DNA of 30,022 nucleotides. Source: a virus. The notes under the pieces are model-generated. The model did no database searches and was not told the origin of the DNA. It saw only the letters and a program-made list of their open reading frames with translations. Numbering within the stretch: position 1 is the stretch's first letter; each line of letters begins with the position of its first letter. The translations under genes were made by a program, and so were the position numbers. The stretch spans positions 1 through 30,022 of the IMG/VR virus record IMGVR_UViG_3300041402_000316. One strand, given 5' to 3'. Of this stretch, positions 1,051 to 9,594 are shown piece after piece.

Positions 1051-1487
1051 TTTGCCGCCCTCCGTATCATGTCAACAAAGATTTTGCGGGCATCGGCTCG
1101 ATCGTCCCGGCTTACACCGAAGAACTCGCGCCCCCCCTCTTCGTGAATAAAGATCGCTTTCTTTCTCTCTTCGGCGCGACTAAAAGTAATGTGTGCCACG
1201 CCCCCGCCTTTCCTTGCAACCGTCATGGAGTTTAGCATGTGACGATTGAACTGTAGATCCACTTTCGCGGTCTGCCGCCCTGCGGCTTCCCTGACGGCCT
1301 TATACTTTTTCGAGTACGGCTTAAACGTCTTTCCCTTGTAATCGACGCCCCGGTTCGTTCGCCTCTGAATATTTTCTTTTATCTTCGTCGCCGCAAGAGC
1401 CGTCGCTTTATCGAGATCGATGTCTTTTACGATCTGCTTAAAGCGAAGCGAAAGAGCTTTCGTACCCTGTATCGTCCCCTTTATCAT
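1047..1487 (-). CDS. HK97 gp10-like / virion morphogenesis protein
   Basis: 146 residues. The order of features matches the gp10/virion-morphogenesis families: an N-terminal helix, the segment FKPYSKKYKAVREAAGR, a VDL...MLNSM strand-helix, then AIFIHEEGG and a terminal FFGVSRDD followed by a basic helix. These proteins sit at the head-tail interface and help join or complete the tail. The ATG at 1487 is preceded by AGGGGTCGAGC. The gene overlaps the end of the upstream gene by 50 nt, which is long for this genome, but no later start has a better ribosome site. Confidence 0.75.
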   Translation of the reverse strand: MIKGTIQGTKALSLRFKQIVKDIDLDKATALAATKIKENIQRRTNRGVDYKGKTFKPYSKKYKAVREAAGRQTAKVDLQFNRHMLNSMTVARKGGGVAHITFSRAEERKKAIFIHEEGGREFFGVSRDDRADARKIFVDMIRRAAK

Positions 1488-2139
1488 GCTCGACCCCTGT
1501 AAGGTTTAAGTAATCGATCCCCCGGAGCTTTGAATCCCGACTTAAGTTAAAGAGCTTCACGCCTTGCGCCCTGTATGTCTCGAACGCTCTTTCAAAGAAG
1601 TTGATCGTTGCGGCAAGCTCGCACTCTTTTGACGGATGCATAATGTGCGAACAATCTGTTTCGCCGTTTGCCATACCTGCCGCGACAATCGGATCTGTCA
1701 TATCGGGAATATGATTTTTGTCGAAGTAATAAGACGAGCACCCTTTAAAATGGTGACGGTCTTTACCCGGCTTAAGATCGATCCCGACAATATAGATCTC
1801 CGCCGCTCCGAGTTGATAAGCGACGGTAAGCATCGTCGTTGCAACAGTCCCCCGGAGAGAGACAAGCCCTGTCCGTTCTGCGTCCACGCCGATCGACGGC
1901 GACCGGAACTGAATGTTTACTTGAGTCATGCCTTTAATATCGTGGAGTAGATTTTTCTCTTCGTGAATGTTTAAATAATAATCGGGGATAAATCTGTCGA
2001 GAATATCATTGCATCCGATTGTTACCCCGTCCCACTCTTCGAAGAACTCGATCGGGAAGTCGTCAATGGAACAACCCGTCCCGCAAATAAGAAACTTCTC
2101 GCCATCATGTTTCCCGATCAAGTCTTGAAGATCTGTCAT
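1438..2139 (-). CDS. GT42/DUF115-like glycosyltransferase-fold protein
   Basis: 233 residues. It resembles the fold shared by GT42 sialyltransferases and DUF115/MptE-like proteins: FLICGTGCSID at 16-26 (phosphate/nucleotide loop), IGCND at 41-45, SLRGTVATTMLTVAYQLG at 93-110, EIYIVGIDL at 113-121, a His-rich segment SHIMHPSK at 163-170 and VKLFNLSRDSKL near 193-204. In GT42 enzymes the matching positions bind the CMP-sugar and carry a catalytic histidine. Here H164 and H167 are candidates. It lies inside the head operon (ATGA overlap with the gene before, 50 nt overlap with the gp10-like gene) but is not an expected structural protein. It could modify a virion protein or host surface sugar, or be a moron. 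The substrate is unknown. Confidence 0.6.
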   Translation of the reverse strand: MTDLQDLIGKHDGEKFLICGTGCSIDDFPIEFFEEWDGVTIGCNDILDRFIPDYYLNIHEEKNLLHDIKGMTQVNIQFRSPSIGVDAERTGLVSLRGTVATTMLTVAYQLGAAEIYIVGIDLKPGKDRHHFKGCSSYYFDKNHIPDMTDPIVAAGMANGETDCSHIMHPSKECELAATINFFERAFETYRAQGVKLFNLSRDSKLRGIDYLNLTGVEHDKGDDTGYESSFASL

Positions 2140-2904: not shown

Positions 2905-3948
2905 TTATTCGTGATCGGTTATCACTGACACGCCACCTGCGGCGGCAGTATTAACACAACCCTGCCCGTAAACCGCCGTAACGACGATCTCCGTAGCCCT
3001 GAGACTTGCGTCCCTCTGAAACTCCGTCCTTGCGCCCTCTTTCAACACGAAAGCAAGACCTGCCGTCTGTCCGGCGGGCATGATAACACCCTGACGGTCG
3101 GCGTTCGTATTAACCGAAGCACAATTCGTGGAGCGGAAAAGATCGACGCCATGAACCTCTTTGAGTGCGCCGAGACTCTGACCGAACACAGAAGGATTCC
3201 CCCAAATAGATCCGGTGCTTGCGGAAATCTCTTTCCTCAAGTCGTCCAACTGTATCGGGTGGAGTACAGCGACAAGATTATCGCCGATGTAATTCCCATT
3301 CTCTAACTCGTAAATTGAGTCGAGAACGTTGTCGGCTGTCATATTGACCCCGGTCGAACCAACGGAAACTCCGAAGCTCGAAGCCGCCGCAAGAACATCG
3401 AGATCGATCTTGTTCGCGAGAGCCTTTCCAAGCTGTGTCGCGTACTGATCGAGCGTCGTTGCGGAAGCACCGAGAAGAACGTCCGTTACCGTGATCATAA
3501 TACCCGCCTCGTCTGCGGTTATCGGGACAGACGTTGCGTTCATTGCGGCATTTGCGGCGTCCGTTCCTTCGGTAAGATCCGTCGCCGTCATAAGAGGCCA
3601 CTTAGGGAACTCTTCTGTCAACGTCGCCTCTGCCGAAATATCGGCCACATTTACAAGCGCGGGCATTATCGCCTCGGCATAAGCCGCTTCGATTATCAAT
3701 CGCGAAACAATCTCGGCGGCGACAAACTCGCCCACCGATCCCGCGTCGCTCGTAACCTCGTCAGCCGCACCCGCAATGTGAGGCGTCAAAGAACCGTCAG
3801 AGAAGAGATAAGAGAAAGCCCCCCTCGTTCCGTTCTTTACCGTCCCGACAATGTAAGGCACGCCGTCGCTCTTCACCTTGAAGAGATCTTCGATCCTGTA
3901 GACTATCGCCATGACAAAGGCGATTACTTTCCAAAGTTTGAAATTCAT
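2905..3948 (-). CDS. Major capsid protein (HK97-fold type)
   Basis: 347 residues, start ATG 3948 behind AGAGGTATTAAG. Residues ~70-130 have the layout typical of HK97-fold capsid proteins: EFVAAEIVSRLIIEAAYAEA, a beta arm, FPKWPLMTATDLTEGTD, SVPITADEAGIMITVTDVLL, then the long spine-like helix ATQLGKALANKIDLDVLAAA. Later come LVAVLHPIQLDDLRKEI, a Gly-rich loop, and a C-terminal beta part ending in a Gly/Ala-rich tail. The first ~65 residues precede this core and carry IVG (33-35) and FSYLFSDGSLTPHIAG (45-60), a motif also found at the N-terminus of the upstream scaffold-like gene. The order portal, MuF, scaffold, capsid supports the call. Confidence 0.85.
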   Translation of the reverse strand: MNFKLWKVIAFVMAIVYRIEDLFKVKSDGVPYIVGTVKNGTRGAFSYLFSDGSLTPHIAGAADEVTSDAGSVGEFVAAEIVSRLIIEAAYAEAIMPALVNVADISAEATLTEEFPKWPLMTATDLTEGTDAANAAMNATSVPITADEAGIMITVTDVLLGASATTLDQYATQLGKALANKIDLDVLAAASSFGVSVGSTGVNMTADNVLDSIYELENGNYIGDNLVAVLHPIQLDDLRKEISASTGSIWGNPSVFGQSLGALKEVHGVDLFRSTNCASVNTNADRQGVIMPAGQTAGLAFVLKEGARTEFQRDASLRATEIVVTAVYGQGCVNTAAAGGVSVITDHE

Positions 3949-3983
3949 CTTAATACCTCTTTTCGCTTAAGAGAGATAAGCCG

Positions 3984-4958
3984 TTAATCGGCCTTTTTAT
4001 ACTTCGCCATTCTCTTCTCTGCGAAACGGTTCGTTTTCTTTGCGAACTTGAAGTTGAGTCCCGGACGAGAACTCGACGGAATAGAAACGCCCCTGTCCCT
4101 TAATGCCTGAAACTCTTCGTCGGACATGCTGTTCACATCGCCCGGCTTGAGATTCGCAATTCCGTCGCCGCCGCCGTCGCCGTTAAACATCGACCCGCCG
4201 CCGCCTGAACCGCCTTTCGAAGAAGCATTAATAAAATGAGCGTTACCTTTGTCGGAAAGAAAGCTTTCAACAAGCCCCTTAACCGACATCTCTGTTCCGT
4301 CTGTGTTAATCCGCGCAACTCCGTCCGCGCTTTGAACCTGAACAGATCCATCGTCGGCGATCTTGAGAGAAGGAAAGAGCAACGACGCAATCTGTCCGGC
4401 ATTACGAACGTTGTAATTCAGGATCGTTTCTTTAAGATCCGTCCTTACCTTATCTTTCCGACTCGTCACTTTATCGGCTTCAAGGACTTTGATCCGAGCT
4501 TGAGAAGCTTCCCAATCTTTGGAATCAATATGCACCCCCTTGCCACCTTTGTCGCCGCCGTCACCTGCTCCCGGATTTTTCCCGCCCTTCAATACGTCAA
4601 CGTCCGACCTGAGCCCGGCGATGATTTCAGCACTCGCCTTGCTCGCGGATTCCATGTCCGTTTTATGCCTCGCGGACATTCTACCGAATGCGCTGTCGAT
4701 TGCCGCCTGTTGAAGATCGTTAAATTCCGCTTTCGCACCCGTACCCGCGCCGCCACCGTCGCCGCCGCCTGAGCCGTCGCCCGCATCGCCTCCGTCGTCA
4801 CCATCCTTGCCCCCGGCAATATGGGGAACATAAGACCCGTCGTCAAAGAGATAGAACATTCTCTTGTACTTCGCGCCCGGTGAAGCAACGTTGTATCTCC
4901 CGACGATTTTAGGTGTCGTCGTCCCACGCCCCGTTTTAAGTTCGTCAACCTGTAACAT
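3984..4958 (-). CDS. Capsid scaffolding protein
   Basis: 324 residues from ATG 4958, preferred because AAAGGGGGCTTAC is just upstream; an ATG at 4979 has no ribosome site. The gene immediately precedes the capsid gene. Layout: an N-terminal module with IVG (18-20) and MFYLFDDGSYVPHIAG (34-49); a Gly/Asp low-complexity linker; a helical, charged middle likely to form coiled coils (two stretches split by a Gly-rich linker); a folded-looking part (ILNYNVRNAGQIASLLFPSL); a Gly/Ser linker; and a basic C-terminal helix (FAEKRMAKYKKAD). Acidic helical bodies with basic tails are typical of scaffolds, whose tails bind the capsid protein. No protease domain is evident. Confidence 0.75.
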   Translation of the reverse strand: MLQVDELKTGRGTTTPKIVGRYNVASPGAKYKRMFYLFDDGSYVPHIAGGKDGDDGGDAGDGSGGGDGGGAGTGAKAEFNDLQQAAIDSAFGRMSARHKTDMESASKASAEIIAGLRSDVDVLKGGKNPGAGDGGDKGGKGVHIDSKDWEASQARIKVLEADKVTSRKDKVRTDLKETILNYNVRNAGQIASLLFPSLKIADDGSVQVQSADGVARINTDGTEMSVKGLVESFLSDKGNAHFINASSKGGSGGGGSMFNGDGGGDGIANLKPGDVNSMSDEEFQALRDRGVSIPSSSRPGLNFKFAKKTNRFAEKRMAKYKKAD

Positions 4959-5030
4959 GTAAGCCCCCTTTGCAAGCATTATCCATGCAAGCGTTTATTG
5001 TTGTTACGGAAAAAAGTCCCGCGCGCCCCT

Positions 5031-5327
5031 TTAAATTAACCTCTTCCGCTCGCCGTTTAGTATAGCCGCGACTCGCTTCGGATCTAACAAAGCCCTTATT
5101 ACCTTCGCGCAAACTATCGCCTTGTCGTCCCCCGACAACTTACTCCACATCGAGATCGGGATCTCCCGGAAGATCGCTTCCATCGCTTTCCGCATAAGAA
5201 AGTCGCGCGTCCGCTTTTGCTTCGCCGACATGGTATCGACCCCGAACGTTGTTGTCTTTGCGCCCGGAACGTTTCCGATACAAATCCCGCCGCTCTGTGT
5301 TCTCCGCTTTTGTGCGTTACGTCTCAT
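5031..5327 (-). CDS. Small basic protein in the head operon, unknown
   Basis: 98 residues, ATG 5327 with GAGGGGGCAAATA upstream, overlapping the previous gene by 11 nt. The N-terminus is very basic (MRRNAQKRRTQ). A helical part follows (RDFLMRKAMEAIFREIP and DDKAIVCAKVIRALLDPKR). I recognise no family. It sits between a Cys-rich mini-protein and the scaffold gene. Between its stop and the scaffold start there is a 72-nt gap with a duplicated GCTTGCA and no clear promoter. Confidence 0.6.
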   Translation of the reverse strand: MRRNAQKRRTQSGGICIGNVPGAKTTTFGVDTMSAKQKRTRDFLMRKAMEAIFREIPISMWSKLSGDDKAIVCAKVIRALLDPKRVAAILNGERKRLI

Positions 5328-5478
5328 TATTTGCCCCCTCTTGTTCCGTAGTTAACGTTCTGGTGTCTATAAGACCTGAACCGTCGCATTCCTTGCAGAG
5401 AACTAAATAATTAACGTCGGCAAAGCCGTTGCCCCCGCAAGCGAAACAAACTTCGAAATCCCTTGCTTCCTGATCCAT
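5317..5478 (-). CDS. DnaJ-type zinc mini-protein
   Basis: 53 residues from ATG 5478, which has GGGGGGCGCGTA upstream and overlaps the MuF-like stop by one base (TAATG). The open frame extends further upstream, but only inside the MuF gene. The core is two CxxCxGxG knuckles, CFACGGNG and CKECDGSG, nine residues apart, the half-module found in DnaJ zinc domains and many phage mini-proteins. It should bind one zinc ion. Its position between MuF-like and scaffold genes suggests a structural or assembly helper, but the function is unknown. Confidence 0.7.
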   Translation of the reverse strand: MDQEARDFEVCFACGGNGFADVNYLVLCKECDGSGLIDTRTLTTEQEGANNET

Positions 5479-6293
5479 TACGCGCCCCCCGGAACTGCGA
5501 CGAGTTGATGCCCGCATTGATACCCGCCGCGATTGATAAAAAAGTCGCCCTCTCGCTTGCCCTGCCAATCTCCCGAACCGATATTGTTCCACTCTTCCCG
5601 CGTCCGCGTCTCTCCGGCGTAAGCCCGGCAGAAGTCCCGCGTCCCCTTGACGGTCGAGCCGAAGTAAAGAAAGTTCTCGATTTCGAGATCGTCGGCTTTC
5701 TTTTGATTAAGCGTTGCGTCGAAAGACATAAGCGAATCATGCACCAACTGCCCGGAGTGTACCGCCATCGGGACGCCCCGCATGTCCTCGATCCCGACAA
5801 GTGAATTGCGAACACCGTCCACCAGATCTGCGAACCGCCCCCCGGCGAGCGTGGTCTTGTATATCTGATCTGCAAGCTCCTGTTGGAAGCGCGCCGCGAG
5901 CACTTCGTATTGAGTAAACGACCCGGCCTTAAGTGCGCGAATGACTTCGATGTCAACGTCAGTAAAGACGATCGGCAAGTCAAGCGTCTTGTAATATGCC
6001 GAGATTCCTTGTGCCGCCTCGTTGTACCCGGTAAGCGACGGCCTGATAAAACCGTCCCGATACTCGCGGGCGAAGATCTCGGTTAATGCTGTTTGTGTCC
6101 TGACGGCGAACTGAGCGTTGACCTGTTCGGAAAGTAAGAGTCCGCCCTTCGTCTTGGCGTCACTCAAGAGATCCATAACGTCGCGCTCGATATTGCGGAT
6201 CGCCCGGATAGATCTCGATTGATGCGTTGAGATCAAGCCTTGAAGAACCGCGTCTTTCGTCGTTGCCGCATTTATGATGTCGCGTCTTGCCAC
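5478..6293 (-). CDS. MuF-like head morphogenesis protein
   Basis: 271 residues. The N-terminal two thirds are helical (for example NIERDVMDLLSDAKTKGG and VIRALKAGSFTQYEVLAARFQQELADQI), and the C-terminus has the hallmark segments of the Mu gpF/SPP1 gp7 minor head family: FLYFGSTVKGTRDFCRAYAG, TREEWNNIG and a terminal RGGYQCGHQLVAV. These proteins bind the portal and are packaged in the head. It lies directly after the portal gene and an intervening zinc mini-protein, as expected. Cys216, Cys260 and His262 could contribute to a metal site, as in other family members. Confidence 0.8.
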   Translation of the reverse strand: MARRDIINAATTKDAVLQGLISTHQSRSIRAIRNIERDVMDLLSDAKTKGGLLLSEQVNAQFAVRTQTALTEIFAREYRDGFIRPSLTGYNEAAQGISAYYKTLDLPIVFTDVDIEVIRALKAGSFTQYEVLAARFQQELADQIYKTTLAGGRFADLVDGVRNSLVGIEDMRGVPMAVHSGQLVHDSLMSFDATLNQKKADDLEIENFLYFGSTVKGTRDFCRAYAGETRTREEWNNIGSGDWQGKREGDFFINRGGYQCGHQLVAVPGGA

Positions 6294-6469
6294 TTAACTT
6301 CGCCTTTCTGGTTCTGAAAAGCTGAAAAACGATAACAGTATTGTCGATACCATGTTCGGCATTCTTCGCAACGCTCAACGCCCGTTTTTTTTACGCTGAA
6401 ACTTAAAGCATTTCGACGGCAACCACAAACCCCACAATAAACATATTCGGTTTTATTCTTGCTCGCCAT
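6272..6469 (-). CDS. Zinc-knuckle mini-protein between portal and MuF genes
   Basis: 65 residues from ATG 6469 (GGGCGAAGAGA upstream), overlapping the portal end by 17 nt and the MuF start by 22 nt. It contains YCGVCGCRRNALSF and, 14 residues later, CEECRTWYRQYC: two Cys pairs expected to bind zinc, with aromatic and basic residues around them. Fold similarity to Com-like zinc fingers was considered but the match is poor. Overlap at both ends and lack of frame disruption support a real gene. Confidence 0.65.
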   Translation of the reverse strand: MASKNKTEYVYCGVCGCRRNALSFSVKKTGVERCEECRTWYRQYCYRFSAFQNQKGEVKWQDATS

Positions 6470-7910
6470 TCTCTTCGCCCTCTTCGCCCTTGCCCCCGGC
6501 GTTGAGCCCCTTTAAGAGATCCGCATCCTCGTCCGCTTTCGAAAGAACGTTCGCGTCGATCTCTTCGTCTATCAGCACAAGAGTTTCCTCGTCGGCGTCC
6601 TGTAGTGCCAAGCGCGCGCCCTTCTTCTGACTCTCTTTCTGGAACGTTTCGCTTTCAATGCGAAGCGTGCTCGCTTTCAATAGATTATCGAGATCCGCAA
6701 CAACGTCGTCGATGTTAAACTTGTCCGGGTAATTCACCGAGCCCGTAAACTCGACGTCCATAAACTTTGCATAAAGCCGAAAGATCTCCGACTCGGCGTG
6801 TTCGAGATTGTCGGCCTTCTCTGCAAGCGACGAATGCAACTGATCCTGTTCGAGCTTCAAGGCTATGCCGGATGCAATCTGTTTCGTCTCTTGCGCCCGA
6901 ACGCCGCCCATCTTCGCGATGCGGAAGATCTCGTCGATGTTATTCAAGACCCACATGCGAATCTCTGCGAGCGACGTGTGTGGAGCTTCAAGCCAGAACG
7001 GTTTTGCGTTCGCTTCACTCGGATCGAACTCAAGCACGTTCCCCGATCCGCCCTCAACGACACCGTTCTTGTCTTTCTTCCCGTAAGGCTTCGCAAGAAA
7101 CGGATAAGCCGCGTTCTCGATAATCTCTTTCGCATCCGAACAGAGATAATAAATATTCTTGTTGATCTCCGCGAGATCCGCGAGATCCGAAAGACCGACC
7201 ATTTTACGCCCGGAGCGTCTGTTGTAAAGAGTGATAAGAGGAATCTCTTCGAGATCGTGGTCGTCGCCGCCGATCTGTACGGCTTTCTTATTCTTCTTTA
7301 CGCTCCATTTTTCCCACCTGTCGCGCCACCAGAGACGATAAACGGTTTCTTTCTCGGAAACCACCTCCCGGATCTTCAAAAAGGTAAGCACGACCGCGCC
7401 CGTCTCTGTCCGTTCGTGCTTCCAATCGAGAACGTTCTCCGGCGTGATCATGCAAAGATAAGGGCGAAGCCCGGCCTCGACCTCTTCGGCCTTGTTGTCG
7501 GCGATCGACGGGGACTTATCGACAAAGATCCCGACGCGCCCATAAGCTTGAGCATACCGCCCGGCGTCACGCATAAACTGTTTAAAGCTCGCGCCATCAA
7601 AGTCGGCATTCTTTAGGAACTGTTCGAAGAGCTCTTCGCCGTCAAGTTCCGCGTAATCGTATTCGATCGTTTTGCGAAAGATGTGACTGACAAAAATGTC
7701 GATGATCGATCCGCAATAATTGTAATAATAAGCGATCGCTTTCCTGCGGGTATAGTTCGCGCTCGTCTCGCGTGGATGCCGGAGCAAATAGTTGCCCGCC
7801 GCGTACTCCACGCCGCCGAAGTATGATGCGATATAGAACGCCCACGCCGCCGAATACTTTTTATATATTGCGTGAGTCTCTTCGAGCTCGCTCTTTTTCG
7901 TCTTAGCCAT
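6453..7910 (-). CDS. Portal protein
   Basis: 485 residues, ATG 7910 overlapping the upstream stop (TAATG). The size and sequence order fit siphovirus portals of the DUF4055/SPP1 gp6-like group: N-terminal helices (AYYYNYCGSIIDIFVSHIFRK split over 55-75), the wing region GRVGIFVDKSP, PYLCMITPENVLDWK, a beta-rich part (EIPLITLYNRRSG), then the stem helices (NKNIYYLCSDAKEIIENAAYP and IRMWVLNNIDEIFRIAKMGG) and a long helical crown, ending in an acidic Gly/Glu tail. The portal is the dodecameric channel at the vertex, which binds TerL during packaging. TerL immediately precedes it apart from a small Cys-rich gene. Confidence 0.85.
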   Translation of the reverse strand: MAKTKKSELEETHAIYKKYSAAWAFYIASYFGGVEYAAGNYLLRHPRETSANYTRRKAIAYYYNYCGSIIDIFVSHIFRKTIEYDYAELDGEELFEQFLKNADFDGASFKQFMRDAGRYAQAYGRVGIFVDKSPSIADNKAEEVEAGLRPYLCMITPENVLDWKHERTETGAVVLTFLKIREVVSEKETVYRLWWRDRWEKWSVKKNKKAVQIGGDDHDLEEIPLITLYNRRSGRKMVGLSDLADLAEINKNIYYLCSDAKEIIENAAYPFLAKPYGKKDKNGVVEGGSGNVLEFDPSEANAKPFWLEAPHTSLAEIRMWVLNNIDEIFRIAKMGGVRAQETKQIASGIALKLEQDQLHSSLAEKADNLEHAESEIFRLYAKFMDVEFTGSVNYPDKFNIDDVVADLDNLLKASTLRIESETFQKESQKKGARLALQDADEETLVLIDEEIDANVLSKADEDADLLKGLNAGGKGEEGEENGEQE

Positions 7911-8266
7911 TACTGCACGCCCCCAAAGTTATGACCACACCGACAACAAGTAAAGTCGAATCCGGTCGTCGTCTTAAAAATAGCAAACTCGATCGCGCCG
8001 CATTGACAAACGATCGCATTGAGCATTTCCGCATCTACCACGCCCCACGACGGCGCGCCCGTTCTCATATCAAAGATCAACTTCTCTTCGAGCACTCCGA
8101 GCCCACGCTCTTGATCGGTAAGCCAACCGCCGCACTCGCATTGCGCTATGTCGCCCTGATTTAAGGTACGATATAGTGGTTGCGGTATCGCTTTAAATTC
8201 CTTGCAAGTACACGTTAACCGAAGCCGTATTCCGCCGCCGTCATTTTTTGCAATACCGTTAAGCAT
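7910..8266 (-). CDS. Four-knuckle zinc-binding protein between TerL and portal
   Basis: 118 residues if started at ATG 8266, which overlaps the TerL stop as TAATG, like two other junctions of this operon; an in-frame GTG at 8278 would add four residues. There are four Cys groups: CTCKEF, QCECGG, CQCGA and CCRCGHNFG, suggesting two zinc ribbons separated by about 50 residues (GVLEEKLIFDMRTGAPSWG). No enzyme motif is seen. Its tight coupling to TerL and portal suggests a packaging or assembly accessory. This is inference from location. Confidence 0.7.
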   Translation of the reverse strand: MLNGIAKNDGGGIRLRLTCTCKEFKAIPQPLYRTLNQGDIAQCECGGWLTDQERGLGVLEEKLIFDMRTGAPSWGVVDAEMLNAIVCQCGAIEFAIFKTTTGFDFTCCRCGHNFGGVQ

Positions 8267-9594
8267 TATCTTATCCACTTTTGCCCGGATGCCCGCTTGA
8301 GTTTAAGCGGAAACTCTCGCGTTATGTAATAACCGAATGCGTCGCTTGCGTGTGTCCTGTCGCTGTCGCGCTTATCGATGTCGCCTGTCCCCTCGCGCCA
8401 TGCGACCGTGTCAAGATCTCGAATCAGCATCTTGCAACGCGGATGGATATAAACGTGAGACTCGCCGCGCGCATTCAAGAGCATGTGATTGACGGCGTTG
8501 ACCCGGTCTTTCACACGGGGATTCGCTTTCGGAATATTAAGATCTCGAAGCGGATAAGTTGTCCGCTCGTCTCTGTCGGTGTACTCAAGATCCCCCATTA
8601 TCGCATAATCGGAAGAGCCCGCCGTCGATCCGTAAGACCCTGCGGCGTCGCCATAGATCTCAATTCCCGCAGGATGGTCGCCGTGAAGAGTAAGAAGCCG
8701 CGATCCCATCTCCCCTGTATTTGTACCATAAAGAACGATCTCGTCAAAGACCGCAATGTCGCGCCCGTCGCTCTGCAAGAGAATCCACGCGCAAGGATTG
8801 ATGTTAAAGTCGCAAGCGGCGATGATCGGAAGTCTCGGATTAAGCTCGACCCCGGCGTCGCTGTGAAGCTTCTTCGAGTAAGCATAATAAACTCGCCCGA
8901 CCGCACCCTCGAAAGATCCTTCGTACTCTTGCCGGAATGTCCGGGGATCAAGATCCCCCCGCGCGGCCTCGACCTCTTCCGCCGGGAGTATGTCGGAACT
9001 GAACCATGTAAAGAGTCCCCAACCGGGAGCGTCGATCGCCTTATCTGCAAGATCCTTGTAATGGTTCAAGCCCTCCGGGACGCCGATAAACCAACACCAA
9101 CCCGCCCTGTCTGATAGAGCCGGACGAACATTCTCTGTCCAAGCGGTCGAACGCATATTCGCGTACTCGTCAAGAACTCCCCCGTCCCACGGCATGCCCT
9201 CGATCCGTTGCGGCTTATCAAGGCCGATTACCCATATATCAGAACCGAAGATCGTCTTAATGCAAAGATCAGTTTCCCGGATGCCGTTCGGAGCGATCCA
9301 CGACTTCGGGATCATACGCTTAAGATCTTCCCAATAGATGCGCTTTGCCTGTCCGTGAGTCGGAGCGGCGGCGAAGTAGTGTGGATTCGCCCACGGCTTT
9401 TTGATCGGTAACGAACGAATAAGCTTTCGCTTTGCGATCTCCGTCTTGCCGGATCTCCGTCCCGCCGGGACTACTGCGAAGCGTGGTGCGTTGTGATAGA
9501 GCTCCGCCTGTTTATTGTGGTGTCGTAAGGGCGTCCATTGCGGCAACAATTGCATCGCGTGCTCGATCATCGATTTTGTCGGGATCTTGTTCAA
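8266..9594 (-). CDS. terL: Terminase large subunit (TerL)
   Basis: 442 residues. The ATPase domain has Walker A AGRRSGKT (44-51) and Walker B GGVLDEY (138-144, D142/E143), with APTHGQAKRIYWEDL as a likely adenine/Q-motif neighbour. The RNase H-like nuclease domain shows the acidic residues of CDFNINP (D262), IYGDAAG (D316) and THASDAFGYY (D418). TerL packages DNA through the portal and cuts it. The start is uncertain: TTG 9594 has GGAGAG nine bases upstream and I use it; ATG 9570 and ATG 9555 lack good sites. All of these overlap the terS end by 44-83 nt. Confidence 0.92.
   Translation of the reverse strand: MNKIPTKSMIEHAMQLLPQWTPLRHHNKQAELYHNAPRFAVVPAGRRSGKTEIAKRKLIRSLPIKKPWANPHYFAAAPTHGQAKRIYWEDLKRMIPKSWIAPNGIRETDLCIKTIFGSDIWVIGLDKPQRIEGMPWDGGVLDEYANMRSTAWTENVRPALSDRAGWCWFIGVPEGLNHYKDLADKAIDAPGWGLFTWFSSDILPAEEVEAARGDLDPRTFRQEYEGSFEGAVGRVYYAYSKKLHSDAGVELNPRLPIIAACDFNINPCAWILLQSDGRDIAVFDEIVLYGTNTGEMGSRLLTLHGDHPAGIEIYGDAAGSYGSTAGSSDYAIMGDLEYTDRDERTTYPLRDLNIPKANPRVKDRVNAVNHMLLNARGESHVYIHPRCKMLIRDLDTVAWREGTGDIDKRDSDRTHASDAFGYYITREFPLKLKRASGQKWIR

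Follow-up and report, generated by a model that had tools for sequence, protein, structure and literature searches.

Why should a phage scaffold and a major capsid protein (MCP), encoded by separate genes, begin with copies of the same small module, and what might that module do during head assembly? The question is raised by a phage fragment from IMG/VR, 30,022 bases long (hereafter the window), whose head operon lies on the minus strand in the order TerL, portal, MuF-like minor protein, scaffold and MCP, with family support from PHROGs and Pfam:

8266-9594, minus strand: TerL gene
6453-7910, minus strand: portal gene (PHROG 145, E = 5e-78)
5478-6293, minus strand: MuF-like minor head protein (homology to HTVC026P gp30, E = 3e-28, and sequence inspection)
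3984-4958, minus strand: scaffold gene, 324 aa, start ATG at 4958 (MLQVDELK...)
2905-3948, minus strand: MCP gene, 347 aa, start at 3948 (MNFKLW...)

The scaffold belongs to PHROG 206 (head scaffolding protein, E = 5.6e-5), its gene sits between the portal and MCP genes, directly upstream of the latter, and it aligns with the scaffolds of 13 relatives through a conserved C-terminal N-P/R-F-x-E-x-R motif; residues 300-322 are, by analogy with other phages, presumed to be its MCP-binding end. The MCP is placed among HK97-fold MCPs by profile matches to PHROG 544 (E = 9e-15) and PHROG 267 (E = 3e-8), while its match to Pfam Phage_capsid (E = 1e-4) reached 22.3 bits and fell under the 24.2 cut-off. 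Plausible Shine-Dalgarno sites precede both reading frames. The MuF-like protein (5478-6293) carries no copy of the module; homologues of it were also found among ORFs of other outgroup loci, with no match among sister-clade loci. Two further features of the operon were recorded in passing. A gene between the MCP and neck genes (1438-2139, minus strand) gave a weak MptE-like match (PF01973, E = 9e-5, below its cut-off), which would be odd cargo in a head operon, and the portal ends in an extra, acidic, glycine-containing C-terminal tail (6453-6530, minus strand) in the window and in its nearest relative, L005, that most of the compared sister-clade portals lack.

The N-termini of scaffold and MCP carry homologous copies of one module of ~35 residues, with the common pattern P-x-IVG-(x)n-GA-(x)n-LF-x-DGS-xxPHIAG. 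The first-pass annotation had reported such a shared motif, and its residue numbering and coordinates are right for starts at 4958 (scaffold) and 3948 (MCP). The two proteins are laid out as follows:

4809-4913, minus strand: scaffold copy of the module, residues 16-50, PKIVGRYNVASPGAKYKRMFYLFDDGSYVPHIAGG
4731-4808, minus strand: Gly/Asp-rich linker of the scaffold, residues 51-76
3993-4061, minus strand: conserved C-terminal segment of the scaffold, residues 300-322, with residues invariant across 15 scaffolds
3880-3942, minus strand: N-terminal hydrophobic helix of the MCP, residues 3-23, outside the homologous module
3769-3858, minus strand: MCP copy of the module, residues 31-60, PYIVGTVKNGTRGAFSYLFSDGSLTPHIAG
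2908-3765, minus strand: MCP body, residues 62-347, beginning where the relatives' MCPs begin (ADEVTS = MANEVT)

BLASTP of scaffold against MCP aligned the two N-termini with 23 of 65 residues identical (E = 2e-6). The local alignment score of 83 was reached by none of 2,000 shuffles (mean 37.7, maximum 71), and of the 666 protein pairs that the window offers this one ranked first, ahead of a pair scoring 54. Profile-profile comparison of MCP N-termini with scaffolds (hhalign; each profile a two-sequence alignment of window and L005) gave E = 2e-6, a probability of 89.5 and 45% identity over 42 columns, which span P-x-IVG through HIAG. At the DNA level, the motif pattern has two matches in the window against an expectation of zero. 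In L005, the similarity between scaffold and MCP modules was equalled by none of 5,000 shuffles, and an identical set of core residues is kept in both copies of the two phages. BLASTP, shuffles, profile comparison and the L005 pair together bear out the earlier proposal of homology through an old rather than a recent duplication; the profile comparison, in line with the check suggested, supplies statistical support at E = 2e-6, and the claimed codon differences are real, 11 of the 19 identical residues using different codons.

Relatives were fetched with portal and TerL queries; scanning IMG/VR with the MCP alone returned nothing. L005 has a portal 77% and a TerL 78% identical to those of the window, and both its scaffold (...PKIVGRFNAATPGAKYERLFWLFNDGSFAPYIAGG) and its MCP (...NPVIVGTKKVGAQGAFKYIFSDGSETLHLAGAADEVTS) carry the module; the contig breaks off 79 codons into the MCP. 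When relaxed, the DNA pattern of the motif, run over 2.9 million IMG/VR contigs, matched L005 only, twice, exactly at the scaffold and MCP copies, a count that may leave out near-identical copies of the window itself; the strict pattern matched no IMG/VR contig. The nineteen sister-clade loci come from phage contigs and from prophage-bearing bins labelled Deltaproteobacteria, and some few nearly duplicate one another; their MCPs all start at MANEVT or a close variant and lack the module. The window MCP body is 61-67% identical to these proteins and is preceded by a 61-residue extension ahead of the MANEVT position, with ...HIAGA running straight into ADEVTS. Of the acidic or glycine-rich linkers said to follow the motif in both proteins, the Gly/Asp-rich linker of the scaffold stands, but the MCP stretch AADEVTSDAGSVGE is the native N-terminus seen in all relatives. 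Sister-clade scaffolds, in most loci read, begin MxxVDELKTG and continue with a short linker and FxPEQQ, so that relative to them the scaffold module of the window is an insertion after VDELKTG; the scaffold of L089 lacks the VDELKTG start as well. The outgroup phages HTVC026P and DSL-LC06 have the module on neither protein. Looking for the pair in related phages, as had been proposed, thus found it on both proteins in L005 and on none of the sister-clade and outgroup MCPs and scaffolds read.

Two loci showed peculiarities of their own. In L127, the scaffold ORF (4598-5419) contains an in-frame stop and the MCP ORF (3158-4597) departs from the family near its C-terminus, anomalies that are probably assembly errors or signs of a decaying prophage. 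In the distant contig L057, three small ORFs (3832-4101, 4192-4452 and 6588-6884) have the basic motif KKVITAKQKSARRKNIAVAR in common near their N-termini, another phage case of a shared N-terminal segment.

Profile and fold searches gave no credible match of the module to a Pfam, PHROG or PDB domain, named phages gave a best E of 1, and among host-group genomes those of the relatives gave weak matches at most (E of 0.055 or worse). A search of 395 genomes from a single phylum, run without a positive control, yielded none at E <= 1e-4, and no second scaffold-MCP pair sharing N-termini was seen in the other fetched loci, where the search statistics were too weak to catch even the pair in the window.

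AlphaFold2 placed strands at residues 33-39, 44-49 and 54-57 of the MCP module (block pLDDT 64-66) and at residues 18-24, 33-38 and 43-46 of the scaffold module (mean pLDDT 60.8 for a 55-residue model), with block pLDDT of about 60-73 across models. With modest confidence, each copy is predicted to be a small three-stranded β-meander, of the same fold in both proteins. The MCP additionally begins with a predicted helix at residues 3-23 (pLDDT averaging 80 over residues 1-10 and 61 over residues 11-20), which is hydrophobic (best 15-residue hydropathy 1.84, and 1.88 in L005), an unusual beginning for a capsid protein. The alignment behind the MCP model leaves out the scaffold modules, which were misaligned when added, and the MCP body was modelled poorly (mean pLDDT 37 with 19 sequences).

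Both copies have been kept while the window and L005 diverged to near saturation at synonymous sites (dS 1.8 for the portal and 4.9 for TerL). Within the modules, dN/dS is ~0.4 (scaffold 0.17/0.45, MCP 0.37/0.91, NG86; Fisher p of about 0.046 and 0.027, respectively), modest evidence that both copies are under mild purifying selection. The MCP extension nevertheless evolves much faster than the start of the body, with dN of 0.69 in the helix, 0.37 in the module and 0.03 at the body start, and is 49% identical to that of L005 versus 95% over the adjoining 21 residues. The 5' DNA of the scaffold gene is, conversely, unusually similar between the two phages (NG86 dS of 0.45 in the module and 0.15 in the linker versus 2.0 in the rest of the gene), the low-dS stretch corresponding to the first ~75 scaffold codons (window 4731-4958, minus strand; L005 7302-7530). 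This low synonymous divergence suggests either exchange or recombination between lineages or constraint at the nucleotide level.

A conserved nucleotide element lies at the start of the same gene:

4931-4949, minus strand: element GTTGACGAACTTAAAACGG, encoding VDELKT

Its pattern, GTTGACGAAC-nnn-AAACGG, recurs throughout this phage group a few codons at most downstream of the scaffold start (L005 7311-7329, L006 3448, L009 3156, L129 9660, L144 3138); L129 and L144 are more distant phages whose MCPs are related. Without exception, the scaffold genes compared (19 of 19) use GTT, GAC and GAA, and AAA is used in all 17 that have the lysine, compared with a mean codon identity of 0.59 at conserved MCP residues and a general preference for GAG over GAA for glutamate. 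Stray matches elsewhere in IMG/VR are meaningless, because by our own estimate ~26 chance matches to this 16-base pattern are expected there, and no conserved pairing partner was found in the upstream sequence. The element looks like a signal, at the RNA or the DNA level, that overlaps the coding sequence; a translational operator and a DNA signal are both possible.

As to function, a common docking tag, as the first-pass annotation had supposed, remains our best guess. Tentatively, and short of conviction, we favour the reading that the module is a self-complementary docking patch that joins scaffold and MCP in the procapsid. Inside the procapsid, the module of one protein would bind that of the other, and this contact would supplement the conserved one made by the scaffold C-terminus; the scaffold module would be carried on its flexible Gly/Asp linker, and the MCP module would be held between the hydrophobic helix and the native N-arm. 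The MCP extension probably faces the scaffold in the procapsid, because it precedes the N-arm, and would act like a very short built-in scaffold domain tying the shell to the separate scaffold core. In P22, the C-terminal hook of the scaffold contacts the coat N-arm (PMC12005531), and in HK97 an N-terminal MCP domain serves as the scaffold, lying inside and touching the portal (PMC10275583), arrangements that make the MCP N-terminus a plausible place of contact. What the same small β-module on both partners would most simply provide is a contact of scaffold with shell that is self-complementary.

The chief alternative to such a patch is that both modules bind a third partner (the portal, the MuF-like protein or a host factor), which would gather scaffold and MCP at the nucleation site. 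The portal is an assembly hub in other phages (PMC10275583), and the acidic, glycine-rich portal tail in the window and L005 is mostly missing from sister-clade portals; we still consider this interpretation unlikely, because binding of the module by any portal feature is conjectural and the MuF-like protein also occurs in HTVC026P, which lacks the module, and in other outgroup loci. The MuF-like protein was rejected as a sufficient reason for the module on the ground of that module-less homologue. It is decidedly unlikely that the module is a mostly neutral relic of a partial duplication, in which the 5' part of one head gene was added in frame to the other and is tolerated, doing little or nothing in one of the two proteins: the rapid divergence of the MCP extension (49% versus 95%) and the fact that relatives manage without it would fit, but dN/dS is below 1 in both modules, and all four copies in the two phages retain one set of core residues despite near-saturated synonymous sites elsewhere in the genomes (portal dS 1.8, TerL 4.9). 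We regard as improbable a targeting or cleavage tag like the capsid targeting sequence (CTS) of T4, which would send both proteins to the core and perhaps be cut off. T4 internal proteins do have only an N-terminal CTS in common (PMC3012670), and such propeptides are cleaved (PMC5694885); however, the module is longer than the 10-20 residues of a CTS, its MCP copy lies away from the very N-terminus, and family searches of the window ORFs scanned recognised no head protease.

The origin of the pair bears on two further readings, both more remote. That the module is a relic of an ancestral fused scaffold-capsid protein, as had been suggested, is very improbable: fusions of HK97 type exist (PMC10275583), but neither protein carries the module in the sister clade or in the outgroup phages HTVC026P and DSL-LC06, so that a relic would need repeated paired losses. 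In the portal tree, the window and L005 form one group (93/100), sister to the module-less clade and with further module-less phages outside; one change suffices in 96% of bootstrap trees, although some outer branches are long. Because relatives lack the module on both proteins and its carriers form one portal-tree group, the simpler reading is a lineage-specific gain on both proteins before the window and L005 split, most simply one gain per protein on their common stem. In a four-sequence comparison, orthologous copies were closer (scaffold copies 73% and MCP extensions 49% identical) than paralogous ones (37-38%), so the duplication is older than that split. We caution that, with two phages of one group as carriers, the paired presence counts as one pair of evolutionary events and not as an independent correlation. 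An extension of the homology into scaffold VDELKTG, which would have made the scaffold the donor, was rejected, the ungapped score without the shared proline ranking 21st of 334 MCP windows. Chance or convergence is the least probable reading of all; the motif is short, but none of the tool results favours this reading, and 0 of 2,000 shuffles, hhalign (E = 2e-6), the repeat in L005 (0 of 5,000) and an IMG/VR pattern unique to L005 argue against it.

Among known systems, the window MCP resembles HK97-type fused scaffolds in having an N-terminal extension before the N-arm, with a predicted helix first and probably interior to the procapsid. It differs in that a separate scaffold gene is kept, in size and make-up (one predicted helix and three strands within 61 residues, compared with a largely coiled-coil domain of about 100 residues), and in that the extension has a predicted β-meander homologous to the N-terminus of the separate scaffold itself; a head protease removes the HK97-type domain, and none was recognised in the part of the ORFs scanned, in a window that may be incomplete. 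Scaffolds of the P22, SPP1 and phi29 type (PHROG 206) likewise have a separate gene just upstream of the MCP gene and a conserved basic C-terminal segment, but we know of none that shares a domain with its own MCP, as the window scaffold does. With the T4 capsid targeting sequence, the window shares the use of one N-terminal tag on several proteins of the prohead interior; the T4 tag is a short peptide that is cut off internal proteins, whereas the window has a module predicted to be folded, on scaffold and shell protein. Ig-like domains are small β-domains added to several phage structural proteins and commonly surface-exposed; the module, also a small (predicted) β-domain and added to two structural proteins, differs from them in having no Pfam, PHROGs or PDB match and in occurring on a scaffold, which leaves the head.

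Scaffolds fused to the MCP, separate scaffolds and shared targeting peptides are thus already known, but no precedent was found in the open-access literature searched for a separate scaffold and its MCP with a homologous N-terminal module, here described from two genomes (the window and L005). Speculatively, and we think it somewhat unlikely, these phages may have a hybrid system, in which the N-terminal self-association module of the scaffold is also installed on the MCP, which would make them a living intermediate between phages with separate scaffolds and phages with fused scaffolds of HK97 type. In such a system, the shell would carry its own short scaffold domain, matching that of the scaffold, and contacts between scaffold and shell would be homotypic. 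Placing the same self-binding patch on both partners would give scaffold-shell affinity an origin in one step, and the module carriers and their close relatives, in which scaffold and MCP both lack the module, offer a testable before-and-after pair for the transition between separate and fused scaffolds.
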